From: a virus
DNA: 40,311 nt
IMG/VR virus record: IMGVR_UViG_3300019487_000054
Coordinates: 1 to 40,311 of that record
Strand: one strand, 5' to 3'
The translations under genes were made by a program, and so were the position numbers. This document shows, piece after piece, positions 32,514 through 37,592 of the stretch. The notes under the pieces are model-generated. The model did no database searches, was not told the origin of the DNA, and saw only the letters and a program-made list of their open reading frames with translations. Every line of letters starts with the position of its first letter. The stretch's first letter is position 1.

Positions 32514-32546
32514 ATCTAAAATAACTTGATATTCCCACCAATATCT

Positions 32547-32556
32547 GATATTTATG
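32547..32556 (+). promoter_or_regulatory. Late-type box (variant)
   Basis: The box reads GATATTTATG, with its core starting 13 bases before ATG 32562 and 10 before ATG 32559. It would give the mobile endonuclease its own, nearly leaderless transcript beyond the capsid terminator. Confidence 0.45.
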
Positions 32557-32561
32557 GTATG

Positions 32562-33320
32562 ATGAAAAGTGGAATATACAAGATAACAAATAATGTGACT
32601 GGTAAGTTTTACATTGGTAGTGCCAAGGATATTGATTGGCGTTGGATTATCCATCGGCGGGATTTGAGAGCCAATAGACATTGTAACCCAAAACTACAGC
32701 ACTCTTGGAACTTCTATGGAGAAGACAAGTTTTCCTTCATTATTCTTGAAGAAGTCGAACCAATCCAAGAGAAGTTATTTGAACGTGAGCAGTATTATTT
32801 GGATACCTTCAAACCGTATATTCGTGGGTTAGGATACAACATTAGCCCAAAAGCAGATGGTGGTGATAACATAACATATCATCCTGATAGAGATGCATTC
32901 ATTGAAAAAATGAGTGCGATTTGTTCCGGTGAGAATAATCCTATGTTCGGAAGAACCCATAGTGATGATACGATTAAAAAACAAAAAGAAAAAGCAAACG
33001 GCAGATTTACGCTTGAGTGGTTTATTGAGAAGTATGGATTAGAACAAGGTCAACAAAAATATGATGCTCGCAGATTGATGTTGGCTAATAGGAAAATGAA
33101 ACAGAACAATGAACCGTGGAATAAAGGAAAAGACACCGGCATTAGATGGAAACATAAAGATGGCTGGTTAGAAAAAAGAAAACAAACTGCCGAGTATTTT
33201 ATCAATCATTTTAATGAATTCAGAGCATTGGTTCTTTCAGGAAATCATAGTCAACGAGAACTATGTAAAATTTTGGGTGTAGGAAGGGAATGTTTAAGAA
33301 AAAATATAAAAAGAATTTGA
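32562..33320 (+). CDS. GIY-YIG homing endonuclease with NUMOD-type DNA-binding modules
   Basis: The 252-residue protein starts with the GIY-YIG domain (SGIYKITNNVTGKFYIGSA, residues 3-21), with active-site candidates in the following WRWIIHRRDL helix. NUMOD3-type motifs follow (GENNPMFGRTHSDD near residue 126, and EPWNKGKDTG), and a C-terminal helix-turn-helix (HSQRELCKILGVGRECLRKN). These modules bind DNA in phage and intron homing enzymes. The next-base alternative start ATG 32559 would add one Met. The gene is AT-rich compared with the capsid gene, sits immediately after its terminator, and is a typical free-standing mobile endonuclease beside a conserved structural gene. Confidence 0.88.
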   Translation: MKSGIYKITNNVTGKFYIGSAKDIDWRWIIHRRDLRANRHCNPKLQHSWNFYGEDKFSFIILEEVEPIQEKLFEREQYYLDTFKPYIRGLGYNISPKADGGDNITYHPDRDAFIEKMSAICSGENNPMFGRTHSDDTIKKQKEKANGRFTLEWFIEKYGLEQGQQKYDARRLMLANRKMKQNNEPWNKGKDTGIRWKHKDGWLEKRKQTAEYFINHFNEFRALVLSGNHSQRELCKILGVGRECLRKNIKRI

Positions 33321-33375: not shown

Positions 33376-33942
33376 ATGACAACATTAAACATAACAACTG
33401 GTTCTATAACTATAGCCAACACAATTGGTGGAGGAATAAATGGAATAGCATATTTCACTGCCTCTGCGACTTGGACAATTCCTAATGGAATTACAAAAGT
33501 TCGTGTAATCGCCATTGGTGGAGGAGGCGGTGGAGCCACTGGTGCGGCTGGTGGAGGAGGAGGCGGATATGCAGAAGATGTAGTAGATGTAAGTTCTTAT
33601 TCAACTTTACCAGTAACCGTGGGGAGTGCCGGGGCACAATATGTTGGTGGAAGTAATGGTGGAGATGGAGGAGATAGTGGATTTCTCAATGTTACCGCAA
33701 GCGGAGGTAAAGGTGCTATTGCTGGTGGTGCAACTACAAACGGAGGCATCGGCGTTTCTGCGACGCTTGTTGGGCGAGGAGGATATGGAGATAATTTAGG
33801 AGGAGGAGTTGCAGGAAATCTTCCGTGGGTATTTCCATTACCTACATCTGTATTGAACACATCAATAAACCTTAATACGATTGGATGTGGTGGATATGGA
33901 AATGCTACTGCAAGTTATGGAGCAGTAGTCATTTATTACTAA
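33376..33942 (+). CDS. Glycine-rich adhesin-like tail protein
   Basis: The 188-residue protein has a beta-rich N-terminus with ATWTIPNGITKVRVIAIG, the standard entry strand of glycine-rich receptor-binding domains. Polyglycine runs follow, interleaved with Ala/Ser/Asn (GGGGGG, GGSNGGDGGDSG, GRGGYGDNLGGG), and the protein ends in the strand YGAVVIYY. Proteins of this type act as fibre-tip adhesins (T4-like gp38 family and related) or tail collar proteins. ATG 33376 is chosen over an in-frame TTG at 33367. The stop is followed by a terminator hairpin. Host receptor specificity is not visible from the sequence. Confidence 0.7.
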   Translation: MTTLNITTGSITIANTIGGGINGIAYFTASATWTIPNGITKVRVIAIGGGGGGATGAAGGGGGGYAEDVVDVSSYSTLPVTVGSAGAQYVGGSNGGDGGDSGFLNVTASGGKGAIAGGATTNGGIGVSATLVGRGGYGDNLGGGVAGNLPWVFPLPTSVLNTSINLNTIGCGGYGNATASYGAVVIYY

Positions 33943-33954
33943 AAATCAACACAA

Positions 33955-33980
33955 CAACCCTCCATTAGTGGAGGGTTGTT
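33955..33980 (+). terminator. Terminator hairpin between convergent genes
   Basis: A perfect 10-bp stem (CAACCCTCCA/TGGAGGGTTG) with a TTAG loop lies between two convergent genes. On the plus strand it is followed by only a short TTTA, so termination may be moderate. Confidence 0.75.
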
Positions 33981-33988
33981 TATGTACA

Positions 33989-34645
33989 TTATTCACGTAG
34001 TCTATAAACTAACAAATCATCGGTCTTTCTTTCTTTGCAAAACCACTCGTGCTTCAAATCATAATTGAGATCATTAAAGAATTGTTTGCATTCATCATGA
34101 TGTCCTTTTTTAACAAGACTTTCATGAGTATAAATAAATGCCCATCTAATTTTTCCTTCCTCAAATGTTTTTCGGTTGTCTTGTAACATTTGAAGCTCAC
34201 TTCCATCAATGTCACAATGCAGAAAATCGATCTCGGACAGGTGTGCATTTAACATAATAAGTTTTAATGTGACGGTCGGAACTTTAGAAGTTTTATTATC
34301 CCATTTCCATGCTTTTCCCACTCCTGCATTGTAAAATATCCCTTTACAATTGTTCAATGCAAACTCCTTTTCTCCCATTTCCAATCTCCATCTAAATGGT
34401 TCAACCATAATGTTGAGTGTCCTGTCTTTTCCAATAATGTGCTTGAACAACAGTGAGTAGTAAGCATTTGCTGCTCCTAGTTCAACCATTGAAGATATTG
34501 GTTTGTTTTGTATTTTCAATTCTAGGGCTTCCTGTTCAAACAGTTCTATCGGAACAGTTTCCCATCGTTCAAAAAAGGTAGGATGGACTGATTTTCCAAA
34601 TTGATCTACAGAGACCCTAAACCCATATTTTTCAGTAATTGTCAT
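33989..34645 (-). CDS. FkbM-type methyltransferase
   Basis: The 218-residue protein has the Rossmann AdoMet-binding loop MVELGAANAYYSLLF (near residues 53-67), an acidic strand end (IMVEPFRW) and the family hallmark FLHCDIDGSELQML (near 140-153), followed by WAFIYTHES. These are features of FkbM-type O-methyltransferases, often found in glycan or lipid modification clusters. A Shine-Dalgarno (AAAGGAAG) lies just before the ATG. It is divergent from the release-factor gene and convergent with the glycine-rich adhesin gene. It may modify a fibre-linked or host surface glycan. The target is unknown. Confidence 0.72.
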   Translation of the reverse strand: MTITEKYGFRVSVDQFGKSVHPTFFERWETVPIELFEQEALELKIQNKPISSMVELGAANAYYSLLFKHIIGKDRTLNIMVEPFRWRLEMGEKEFALNNCKGIFYNAGVGKAWKWDNKTSKVPTVTLKLIMLNAHLSEIDFLHCDIDGSELQMLQDNRKTFEEGKIRWAFIYTHESLVKKGHHDECKQFFNDLNYDLKHEWFCKERKTDDLLVYRLRE

Positions 34646-34667
34646 AACTTCCTTTGATTGGCTTGAC

Positions 34668-34676
34668 TATAAATAG
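34668..34676 (-). promoter_or_regulatory. Late-type box (TATTTATA core, minus strand)
   Basis: Read on the minus strand the box is CTATTTATA, with its core starting 30 bases before ATG 34645. A Shine-Dalgarno lies between box and start, so this is the leadered form. Confidence 0.5.
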
Positions 34677-34689
34677 TGTGTTTTTACTC

Positions 34690-34718
34690 TTGACAAATAC
34701 TTATTCTTGTCATACATT
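34690..34718 (+). promoter_or_regulatory. Sigma70-like promoter for release-factor gene
   Basis: A perfect TTGACA -35 and a TACATT -10 are separated by 17 bases. The -10 ends 9 bases before ATG 34728, giving a leader of about 3 bases, the same geometry as the promoter at 24981. Confidence 0.75.
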
Positions 34719-34727
34719 TGACGACTT

Positions 34728-35379
34728 ATGATCGTAGAAATCAGAGCAGCAGAAGGTGGGGCCGACGCCAAAGACTTGGTGTTGGTTCAAGTAGATATTT
34801 ACACTCGCTTGGCAAAGCGGGGGTTGCTTTGACCTCGAAATTGTTGACCTAAGACCGGGGTTGGCAGTTCTTCAAGTAGGCGGTCATAAAGCTTCCGAAA
34901 TCTTCCAACACGAATCCGGCGGACACCGATGGCAGCACGCTCCTACAGGCAAAGTCCATACTAGCACCATTACGGTCGCTGTATTGGAAGAGCCTACTCA
35001 ACAGGAGCTTGTTATTCATCAAAAAGACCTCCATATAGCCACATGTCGGGGTGCGGGCAACGGTGGACAACACCGCAACAAAACCGATTCCGCTGTGATT
35101 GTTACGCATATACCTACCAAAACGGTAGTTAGGTGTGAAAACGAGCGTTCTCAGCATCAAAACAAGGAATTGGCTATAAAAACCCTCCGAGCACGCCTTT
35201 GGCAATCCATTCAAGAAAAGACTGCCTTGGCAGTATCACAGATTAGAAACAATCAAATAGGGTCAGGACAACGGGGAGACAAGCGGAGGACAATTCAGGC
35301 TCAGAATAATGTCGTAAAAGACCATCTGACGGGTCGGAAGTGGAGATATGAGGATTACATCAAAGGTAGATGGGATTAA
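34728..35379 (+). CDS. Domain-1-less class I release factor expressed by predicted +1 frameshift
   Basis: Two reading frames form one release factor: 34728-34829 (34 codons, ending in an in-frame TGA) and 34831-35379 (+1 frame). Skipping T34830 yields 216 residues. The first part, VEIRAAEGGADAKDL, corresponds to the start of RF domain 2 and the +1 part continues it without a gap (HESGGHRWQ, HTSTITVAV). Then come the GGQ loop (GAGNGGQHRNKTDSAV, Q114), ERSQHQNKELA and GSGQRGDKRRT, signatures of peptidyl-tRNA-hydrolysing release factors. Domain 1 (about 100 residues) is absent: an in-frame TGA lies 9 bases upstream of the ATG. The stop-codon recognition segment is short (APTGKVHTS). It has its own sigma70-like promoter, so it may be an early gene. 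Confidence 0.85.
34819..34833 (+). other. Predicted programmed +1 frameshift site (prfB-like)
   Basis: GGGGG (34819-34823), a three-base spacer TTG, then slip codon CTT and TGA C. This has the same slip codon, stop and following base, and the same spacing from the G run, as the Escherichia coli prfB site (AGGGGG TAT CTT TGA C). In prfB, slow UGA termination lets peptidyl-tRNA slip +1 with help from the Shine-Dalgarno-like pairing. Frameshifting here is inferred. Confidence 0.88.
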
Positions 35380-35666
35380 GAAAAGCCAAGGGCAGTTCTT
35401 TCTTCAACTGTCAACTTAGCAAGTGCTTGAATCTTTGTCTGTTCTTTGAGTTCGGCTGCGGCTGCTTCGGCATCTTCCACACCTTTTTTTATAACGTAGG
35501 CTTCGTACCAACTTCGGAATTCTGGATATTGTTCCAGAAGTTTGGGTTCGTTTGCTGCCACAGTCGCCGCAATTGGTTCCAAAATATCAAAGGACTCTTT
35601 TATGATTCGTGGGTCGTATGCCACCGGAAGTGACACTCCATCGGGCGTTATTATTCTAAAAGGCAT
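35376..35666 (-). CDS. Small helical protein of unknown function
   Basis: The 96-residue protein starts MPFRIITPDGVSLPVAYD. It then becomes helical and acidic with a coiled-coil-prone segment (VEDAEAAAAELKEQTKIQAL) and the ending EERTALGFS. ATG 35666 is chosen because a minus-strand A/T box ends just 3 bases upstream; a longer in-frame start at 35684 would overlap that box. Its 3' end overlaps the release-factor stop by 4 bases. No motif or homolog is recognised. The box suggests it is expressed late, unlike the neighbouring release factor. Confidence 0.5.
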   Translation of the reverse strand: MPFRIITPDGVSLPVAYDPRIIKESFDILEPIAATVAANEPKLLEQYPEFRSWYEAYVIKKGVEDAEAAAAELKEQTKIQALAKLTVEERTALGFS

Positions 35667-35669
35667 GGT

Positions 35670-35679
35670 AATAAATATC
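35670..35679 (-). promoter_or_regulatory. Late-type box (variant, minus strand)
   Basis: Read on the minus strand the box is GATATTTATT, with its core starting 11 bases before ATG 35666. It is paired with an opposing box at 35700-35708, making a compact divergent promoter region of about 50 bases. Confidence 0.5.
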
Positions 35680-35699
35680 GCCAAAGGAGTATCCGTTCC

Positions 35700-35708
35700 A
35701 TATTTATA
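35700..35708 (+). promoter_or_regulatory. Late-type box (TATTTATA core)
   Basis: The box reads ATATTTATA, with its core starting 19 bases before ATG 35720. The leader would be only a few bases long and shows no clear Shine-Dalgarno. Confidence 0.5.
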
Positions 35709-35719
35709 TCTGAGCTACT

Positions 35720-36460
35720 ATGATTTCATTTTCAAAATTGATGCGGAAGGTTTTAACTGAACGAATGTCTTTCCGTGACTTGTTTCGTGTCAGTGAACCC
35801 GGACGCATAGACCGTGCTCGTGATGTCAATGCAAAGTCATTGAAAGTTACCAGCATGGACGGAAATGAAGCATGGACGTTTTCATACAAAAGTAATCCAA
35901 GCACCACTGGCAATCGTTGGCAGGGTTACGTCCGGTTTTTGAAAGAAGACGTAAGCCACAAAGATCGTGCCGACCAATTGGATTGTATGGTTGACTGCAC
36001 TTGTCCTGACTATCGTTTTCGATGGGCATATAACAATGCCAAACAAGATGCCGGTGCTCTTGGACCGGGAGCGTGGAATGACAATAACGGAACCGCTCCT
36101 CGTCCTCGTGAACAAGGCGGTGTTGGAGATCAAGGTCCGGGAATGTGCAAGCACTTAATCGCCTTGGGAGAATTTCTAAAGACAAACATTGAGCCAGAAG
36201 CTCCGAGTCCAGAAGAACCCAAGGCTCCTGAACCAACGATCAAGCCTACTCCCACAGCAAAGAAAGAACCCGTGCCCGTAAAGGCAACTGTTCAAGCTCC
36301 GGAACCAGAAGATACTTATAGCGACAGTCGTGCCGGTGACAATGACGATACTTATTCCGATTCACGAGGCGGACTCGAAGAAGGACACGGACAACTGACG
36401 CAGAAGCTCAACAACCTCGTAAAGACCAAGCCTCAATTTGACGTGTTCTATGAAGATTGA
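35720..36460 (+). CDS. SWIM-type zinc-finger protein
   Basis: The 246-residue protein has a CxC...CxH zinc pattern: VDCTCPDYRFRW (C93, C95) and GMCKHLIALGEFL (C143, H145). This is a SWIM domain with an insertion of about 47 residues (rich in Gly, Asn and Pro), longer than typical. The N-terminus is a short amphipathic helix (SKLMRKVLTERM). Residues about 155-200 form a Pro/Glu/Lys-rich linker, followed by a tandem acidic repeat DTYSDSR (two copies near residues 196 and 209). SWIM domains bind DNA or proteins. The last 11 bases overlap the next gene. It is possibly virion-internal, inferred from its N-terminus. Confidence 0.7.
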   Translation: MISFSKLMRKVLTERMSFRDLFRVSEPGRIDRARDVNAKSLKVTSMDGNEAWTFSYKSNPSTTGNRWQGYVRFLKEDVSHKDRADQLDCMVDCTCPDYRFRWAYNNAKQDAGALGPGAWNDNNGTAPRPREQGGVGDQGPGMCKHLIALGEFLKTNIEPEAPSPEEPKAPEPTIKPTPTAKKEPVPVKATVQAPEPEDTYSDSRAGDNDDTYSDSRGGLEEGHGQLTQKLNNLVKTKPQFDVFYED

Positions 36461-37592
36461 ACAACTGGAAGAACTAATCCAAAGAATAGTGTGCGAAAGT
36501 CTTGACGCATTGTCGGAAGACCATCAAAAAGGTGAGTGGTGGATTGATGACCACGGACAGACCATTTTTGCAGACATTGACATCGGCGATTCGGGACATG
36601 AAGGTGTGGTCATTCAATACTTGGTTCATGAAATTCTTTCCCACTTTGGAATTGAAGAACATGAAGTAGGATTATTGATTCACTACGACGATCAAATCAA
36701 ACAAGCTTTGATTGACGACGACAACTTCTCAGAGGAAGATGCTCAACAATGGGAGCGTGAAGGTCCATCCGAAGTCATTCTCAAGAAGTTGATTGAAGAC
36801 AAGGCATATCCAGACCCAAAACAAGCTGAGGACGCCGTTTACATTGCTTACAATAACACTAGCCGTGATGCTAGAAACTATGGTATGCAATATCTGAACT
36901 GGAAAATCATGAAGACCGTTGGGTCTGATATTGAAATCCAAACATGGCATTTGAAGCCCGAAGATTTGGGAATTATTGTTCGTGGCATTTGGGACATCAT
37001 GGAAGACACAGATGACCCCGAAGATTCTGATAACGAAGTCGGAGAAGATGGGTATCCCGGTCCTCGCATTAACGTAACCATCCAAGCCACGGGCAAACGC
37101 TTTCATGATATTCCCCTTACCGTGTTGGAAAAGAAGCTTCCATCTTCTTTGATCAACTATCGCAGCGGACTCCACTCAGATTTCCGTGAAGGACTCAATG
37201 AAGAGTATCATGTTCATCACAAAGAATATCGCCTCTATGAAGGAAACCGCAGTATAGTAGCAATCTTTGAGGACAATACTCGTCTGAAGTTTGAAGTTCA
37301 TTTCCGTGACAACCGTGGAGAGGACAAAGAAAAGTGGAGACACAAAGCTATGACCACTTGGAAATCTCTTGCCAACGAGATTCATGGAGACGTTCAATTA
37401 TCAGATGCTTTGAATCCTATTGTGAAGGCTTGGAAAGAATGTTTTCAAGAGGCATTGAAGCATCCCAAGATGAAGGATTATGTCCGCCTAAAAAGACATC
37501 AAAAGATTTTTCCTGACAAGGGATACCCACCATGCGTTCAGGGAAAACCACAAATTATGACGGACCCCATGAATTTTACTTCTCACGGATAA
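36450..37592 (+). CDS. Large acidic protein of unknown function
   Basis: The 380-residue soluble protein begins with the amphipathic helix MKIEQLEELIQRIVCESL. It then shows a WWIDDHGQTIFADIDIGD region, an acidic low-complexity stretch (DTDDPEDSDNEVGEDG, about 195-210) and a C-terminal part rich in Arg, Lys and His. It starts inside the SWIM gene and is probably co-translated with it. ATG 36450 is preferred over an in-frame TTG at 36438. Its 3' end overlaps the convergent fibre gene by 10 bases. No family is recognised; the pairing with the SWIM protein suggests a shared role. Confidence 0.5.
   Translation: MKIEQLEELIQRIVCESLDALSEDHQKGEWWIDDHGQTIFADIDIGDSGHEGVVIQYLVHEILSHFGIEEHEVGLLIHYDDQIKQALIDDDNFSEEDAQQWEREGPSEVILKKLIEDKAYPDPKQAEDAVYIAYNNTSRDARNYGMQYLNWKIMKTVGSDIEIQTWHLKPEDLGIIVRGIWDIMEDTDDPEDSDNEVGEDGYPGPRINVTIQATGKRFHDIPLTVLEKKLPSSLINYRSGLHSDFREGLNEEYHVHHKEYRLYEGNRSIVAIFEDNTRLKFEVHFRDNRGEDKEKWRHKAMTTWKSLANEIHGDVQLSDALNPIVKAWKECFQEALKHPKMKDYVRLKRHQKIFPDKGYPPCVQGKPQIMTDPMNFTSHG

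Follow-up and report, generated by a model that had tools for sequence, protein, structure and literature searches.

A phage gene for an RF1-lineage release factor with a predicted prfB-like frameshift switch and a shortened decoding loop

Among bacterial release factor genes, programmed frameshifting has been found in prfB and not in prfA, and the prfB motif contains no TAG in 8,164 bacterial genomes (PMC12421855). The prfB consensus is CTT_TGA_C, accompanied by a Shine-Dalgarno (SD)-type stimulator (PMC3711429). No RF2 gene is described as using straight readthrough of an in-frame UGA and no RF1 counterpart is known, a giant virus being the exception (PMC5009743). In phages, RF1 occurs in code-4 genomes (PMC10746230), and both RF1 and RF2 are listed among the genes of huge phages, in a passage that mentions no switch (PMC7162821). 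Here we describe a gene in a 40,311-nucleotide viral DNA (IMG/VR record IMGVR_UViG_3300019487_000054, positions 1 to 40,311; this whole stretch is called the window) that carries a prfB-like cassette and is predicted to encode a class-I release factor with a GGQ motif and no domain 1. The explanation we prefer, and consider reasonably probable, is a back-up release factor that would be licensed by failing termination and whose short decoding loop may be relaxed in its second-base reading. No report of such a family was found in the literature searched, from which subscription papers were mostly absent; one may exist.

The likeness to prfB lies in the succession of an SD-like G run, CTT, TGA and, mostly, C. 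These RF2-type features, together with a conserved +1 product, are all present in the window gene (Table 1), and the shifting itself is predicted. Joined across the shift, the protein matches the Pfam families RF-1 (PF00472; 2.8e-27, 95.4 bits against a cut-off of 35, residues 92-199) and PCRF (3.3e-10, residues 2-83), and its GGQ is invariant across 99 aligned rows. The family is unlike prfB in that its factor is of the RF1 lineage and lacks domain 1, in that the cassette follows the GG tip of domain 2 instead of lying in domain 1, and in that TAG occupies the site in 17 of 82 family members, whereas the prfB motif lacks TAG in all 8,164 bacterial genomes (PMC12421855).

An in-frame UGA with a +1 shift had been proposed in a preliminary description of this DNA, made from the sequence alone, and both prove to be present and conserved in relatives. 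A scan with the single protein returned 4 viral loci, all with a TGA shift at the same codon. The viral set was then made up of 80 alignment-scan loci, 6 phage-collection records and the window, giving 87 members with some near-copies among the rows; scans keep the 80 best loci, and all counts are of fetched loci, not of prevalence. A +1 shift is needed in 66 of the 87 (stop TGA in 51, TAG in 14, TAA in 1), while 17 have an in-frame TGA and 4 show neither form. Two further scans, keeping the best 80 of 193 and the best 80 of 313 relatives, added 78 distinct proteins, of which 66 have one in-frame TGA, one has an in-frame TAG, seven are shifted (TGA 3, TAG 3, TAA 1) and four show no stop; two of these four (L207 and L208; L numbers denote loci) have no readable N-terminal part. 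The switch as predicted thus takes several forms with one result, namely that the full factor would be made only when the stop is not read.

The cassette was analyzed in a set of 82 distinct shifted proteins from viruses and bacteria, with L088 and L132 left out. TGA is the site stop in 63, TAG in 17 and TAA in 2; CTT-T is found before the stop in all 82, C follows it in 60, and an SD-like hexamer with at least five matches occurs in 63, at a spacing of 3 nt in 49 of these. Codon-position entropies among the 82 relatives are 0.76, 0.57 and 1.59 bits before the site and 1.43, 1.00 and 1.79 bits in the +1 frame after it, a pattern that indicates two coding frames joined. Gene decay or a sequencing error could also break a frame in a viral contig, but either is scarcely credible here, given that 82 distinct proteins, drawn from many metagenomes and from the complete Minicystis rosea genome, share the break at about the same codon together with its cassette. 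Very improbable, too, is the production of two separate proteins, the downstream open reading frame (ORF) being started internally and the 34-codon ORF serving as a leader peptide. Ribosomes could in that case bind at the G run; however, over the first 20 codons of the +1 frame downstream of the site, only 40 of 82 relatives have an ATG or GTG (51 of 82 counting TTG), which makes internal starts unlikely as a rule. Moreover, residues 1-34 belong to the release factor fold and are conserved as protein, and the spacing to CTT matches that of prfB. Conservation of the prfB cassette through such wide divergence leaves the switch better supported than any codon use of the loop.

The family extends beyond phages. 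A scan of bacterial genomes gave 43 loci, in 16 of which the domain-1-less type with CTT-TGA or CTT-TAG occurs (L090, L092, L094-L104, L112, L114 and L130). These are mostly named Myxococcota or deltaproteobacteria, and they include the complete M. rosea genome. The latter also encodes an ordinary RF1, an SPF-bearing RF2 and a PrfH-like protein that scores below the cut-off. L091 and L093 are of the no-stop type, and most other bacterial loci are ordinary RF1. Relatives with an in-frame TGA also occur on three proteobacterial plasmids, from Variovorax, Bosea and Rhizobium, and the annotation of the Variovorax plasmid splits the gene in two.

Recoding of UGA was considered for the phages with an in-frame TGA and rejected. 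Across 70 loci of this kind, 130 of the 443 ORFs that reach 120 amino acids terminate with TGA, and the open run after TGA is 18.0 codons, as against 19.4 after TAA. The release factor genes of the same loci contain 70 TGA codons, 61 at codon 33, eight at codon 32 and one elsewhere, with TGG at 141 other Trp sites. This use of TGA as a stop, together with its single position, implies that the code is standard and that TGA is special to the release factor gene. Code-4 ORFs in the flanks of L008, L010 and L012 contain 2, 2 and 1 TGA versus 37, 20 and 17 TGG, and ARAGORN called no tRNA with a UCA anticodon in the flanks of 20 in-frame-TGA loci. We infer that the in-frame TGA would be read through with Trp. 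For annotators, it follows that such genes get split and that an in-frame TGA in them is no evidence of a changed genetic code. Searches with a protein of this group returned only matches below 60% identity among phage records and plasmids. A giant-virus release factor gene with both readthrough and a frameshift encodes a eukaryote-type eRF1 of unrelated fold.

Several members depart from the usual site. L088 shifts at CTT-TAG at codon 47-48, about 13 codons later than the rest, and L227 has an in-frame TAG at codon 47. L014 and L047 have an in-frame TGA at the shift-site codon, with CTC or CTA replacing CTT, so that no shift is needed there. In L263, L264, L296, L089 and L248, the release factor gene of the in-frame group lies amid dense tRNA arrays, reaching 14 tRNAs within about 8.7 kb.

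Profile, tree and predicted structure all place the window factor in the RF1 lineage, and not with RF2 or PrfH, in agreement with the RF1-type affinity suggested beforehand. The best NCBIfam score is that of prfA, at 174.9 bits, far below the equivalog cut-off of 423.25, followed by prfB at 132.7 and prfH at 82.9, likewise under their cut-offs. Loss of domain 1, also suggested beforehand, is borne out by an N terminus corresponding to about RF1 position 107-115, the prfA match beginning at 115 of 361. Phylogenetic placement was carried out on 122 rows, with loop columns excluded, 15 near-copies left out and a bootstrap that had not settled. It separates RF2 at 100/99 and has the family adjoining RF1 at 99/52, so that the distinction from RF2 stands while the exact branching with respect to RF1 is weak; the single PrfH row sits on a very long branch. 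Neither an SPF or SPY loop nor membership of the RF2 branch was found for the window protein in the alignment and tree. An AlphaFold2 model of the protein alone, without the ribosome, built from the 99-row alignment, has a mean predicted local distance difference test (pLDDT) of 93.3 and a predicted template modeling score (pTM) of 0.78; a single-sequence model (pLDDT 38) was set aside. Its best match in VIA-align is ribosome-bound Thermus thermophilus RF1 (Z 22.1, root-mean-square deviation (rmsd) 1.7, 216 aligned), followed by mtRF1a (20.6), RF2 (18.7, the best of the rows named RF2) and PrfH (14.4, rmsd 4.0). As in RF1, there is a Gln before the loop and HTS or QTS after it, along with the fold and GGQ; unlike RF1, the family lacks domain 1 and has a frameshift switch. 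The mitochondrial factor mtRF1a is also the second-nearest Foldseek match of the window model. In mtRF1 the loop is longer and changed, whereas that of the window is shorter, and we know of no switch in either mtRF1a or mtRF1.

The decoding loop is where the window factor parts from most of its relatives. Its loop, QHAPTGKVHTS, is by alignment exactly 4 residues shorter than the RF1 loop QRVPATESQGRIHTS and than that of full-loop relatives, QRVPPTEKRGRVHTS; the +1-frame protein reads GGHRWQ69-HAPTGKVHTS79 in this region. The shortening noted in the preliminary description is therefore real, and it is not noise: of 173 members searched, 165 have a full loop, seven are exactly four residues short and one (L066) was not parsed by the script and is full length on reading the alignment. 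No intermediate length was seen among the 172 parsed loops. In the model, strands 64-70 and 77-86 enclose residues 71-76, and the superposition on RF1 suggests that, apart from a local deletion at the loop, the fold is the ordinary one of ribosome-bound RF1. Short loops require four changes on the tree, with starred branches forcing four, and so appear to have arisen at least four times, each time by the loss of four residues: in the window with L001 and L015 (100/93), in L014, in L007 (sister L004) and in L019 (with L017 and L021). Beyond the loop, no other residue was judged to change repeatedly with the short form over these origins. A pattern scan of viral contigs for further short loops after WQ gave five matches, namely the contigs of L019, L024, L001 and L015, and L311, which is not a release factor.

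In RF1, the Thr of PxT touches stop bases one and two, the Gln before the loop and the Thr of HTS touch the third, and the helix-5 tip touches the first. Full-loop members keep the RF1 motif, mostly as PPT, with the Gln before it and HTS or QTS after it; its third residue, in 90 full loops, is T in 76, N in 10, S in 2, L in 1 and G in 1. Of these elements the window has lost the PxT-bearing tip; the GG of helix 5 and, on either side of the loop, the Gln and the His-Thr are retained. Thus PxT in a full-length loop is found in most full-loop relatives and is absent from the window. The PxT-like remnant once read into APTG does not hold up, as the short-loop sister L001 has HISGDRIHTS in place of HAPTGKVHTS, with ISG where the window has APT. 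With every reading element but the PxT tip kept, several options are open for codon use. Our favored guess is that discrimination at the second base is relaxed in the short loop, UGA perhaps being read as well. A genuine possibility, though one we hold doubtful, is that RF1 specificity survives the shortening: UAA and UAG would still be read by a tighter hairpin that has a Ser/Thr-Gly-like turn, and the UGA switch would sense host RF2 only. The short loops do share a Ser or Thr followed by Gly or Asn, the RF1-marking residues Q69, H77, T78 and the hydrophobic V76 are retained around the loop, profile and structure are RF1-like, and full-loop relatives bear the same UGA switch with the RF1 motif. 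On the other hand, the lost part carries PxT in RF1, and a tip lost four times, always by four residues, suggests a functional change, not drift.

It is quite unlikely that the short-loop factors are PrfH-like rescue factors, acting independently of codons or on damaged ribosomes. PrfH likewise has no domain 1 and a loop shortened by a gap of three residues (PMC1586002), and loss of the loop would be expected where no codon is read. Nevertheless, the window has EGG, not GP, at the helix-5 tip and HAPTG in place of the SXY of PrfH (PrfH features from PMC1586002), and the sisters L017 and L004 have full codon-reading loops. No RtcB, the partner of PrfH, was called next to the window gene, nor in the families listed for 109 phage and 59 bacterial neighbor ORFs (25 of 33 phage and 25 of 42 bacterial families were listed, and the phage ORFs are 109 of 140, those left out being mostly very short). 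The kinship with PrfH that the preliminary description had raised was accordingly rejected on these grounds, on the structural comparison (Z 14.4 versus 22.1 for RF1) and on the PrfH profile score of 82.9 against a cut-off of 166.65 bits.

Under the back-up explanation, ribosomes starting at 34728 would normally get no further than CUU-UGA, at codon 35, and would yield a useless 34-residue peptide. Should UGA termination be slow, with host RF2 scarce or busy, the SD-like G run 3 nt upstream would pull the CUU-bound tRNA into the +1 frame, and the shifted ribosomes, if frameshifting operates so in vivo, would make the full factor, which would enter A sites at stop codons and free the peptides. 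The factors of full-loop relatives should read UAA and UAG, whereas in the window branch, with the PxT-bearing tip lost, second-base discrimination is perhaps relaxed. Full-loop members have RF1 loops; the UGA switch is thus found on factors of the RF1 type and should sense host RF2, not the factor itself. Such cross-sensing had been raised earlier as an idea, which gains strength from full-loop relatives that have an intact PxT and the same UGA site. Autoregulation of the classical prfB kind, in which all members, full loops included, read UGA and the level of the factor closes the switch, is unlikely. It would suit the prfB-type cassette, the variable third residue of PxT and the use of both UGA and UAG at the site, as expected of a factor that reads both; however, nearly all full loops are of the RF1 type, with the Gln before the loop and no SPF, and RF2 stands apart on the tree.

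Four points weigh against the back-up explanation. First, no stop occurs in the region in L020, L037, L067, L009, L194, L205, L091 and L093, so the switch is not indispensable. Second, a switch that amounted to simple feedback on the factor's own codons should make site stop and decoding loop co-vary; on the tree, about 12 exchanges between TGA and TAG show no association with the third PxT residue or with the His/Gln change (few pairs are informative). Third, the UAA sites (2 of 82) would sense both host factors. Fourth, the benefit to a phage of an RF1-type factor when RF2 fails is a guess; RF1 and RF2 both read UAA (PMC12421855), and an extra RF1-type factor could in this way free RF2.

More tentatively, and as something possible rather than probable, we propose a widespread RF1-lineage class in phages, Myxococcota and proteobacterial plasmids that is made only on termination failure through interchangeable switches: ribosomes would either shift to the +1 frame at UGA or UAG or read through an in-frame UGA. 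In this joint proposal the RF1-type factor would answer to RF2 shortage, and several lineages, that of the window among them, would have lost the same four loop residues, toward relaxed or all-stop reading. That an RF1-lineage family, mostly of phages, has frameshift and readthrough forms at about the same gene position makes phage sensing of host termination capacity testable. The natural pairs of full and short loops (L016 and the window, L017 and L019, L004 and L007) may likewise serve to define the minimal loop for stop reading.

Table 1. Positions of the release factor gene of the window and of its parts
Feature	Position	Strand	Basis or remark
Release factor gene	34728-35379	+	216-residue joined product via +1 shift at TGAC
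0-frame ORF, 34 codons, then TGA at codon 35	34728..34832; TGA 34830-34832	+	ORF reading
GG of helix-5 tip, inside 0-frame ORF	34755-34760	+	Sequence reading
Frameshift cassette CGG GGG TTG CTT TGA C	34818..34833	+	SD-like G run, 3-nt spacer, slippery CTT, stop, C
+1-frame release factor part, residues 35-216, TAA end	34831..35379	+	ORF reading, Pfam
Shortened decoding loop with flanks, H70-S79	34936..34965	+	Alignment, AlphaFold2 model
APTGKVHTS, residues 71-79	34939-34965	+	Inside 34930-34985 of the preliminary description
GGQ catalytic motif, residues 112-114	35062..35070	+	Alignment
Sigma-70-like promoter TTGACA-17-TACATT, end 9 nt 5' of ATG	34690..34718	+	Consensus match only

A like promoter lies 6-9 nt 5' of the ATG in all five rows of the window clade (the window, L001, L015, L002 and L016), compared with four of 177 other rows in which one lies within 14 nt of the ATG, two of the four being near-copies. 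With the putative promoter so close to the ATG, a nearly leaderless mRNA is predicted for the window clade, while frameshifting would rely on an SD-like element. The RNA fold at 34800-34900, around the shift site, is somewhat better than that of shuffled sequences (z -2.14), with a hairpin just 5' of the G run. An Rfam scan of 33900-36600 gave three matches, every one under its gathering score.

The window carries T4-type genes, including a gp23-like capsid gene (2e-74), a large terminase gene and a portal gene. The nearest neighbors of the release factor gene are an FkbM methyltransferase-like gene (33989-34645) and two genes without a Pfam family; no conserved partner gene was seen among the families listed for the 109 phage neighbor ORFs and the 59 bacterial ones, which come from 15 loci. 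ARAGORN calls a tRNA-Phe at 35910-35987, within an ORF (35720-36460), which is probably false. Between convergent genes, a terminator-like hairpin of 12 pairs lies on the minus strand at 33953-33980, and a GIY-YIG/NUMOD3 homing-endonuclease-like gene (32526-33320) directly follows the gp23 capsid gene.
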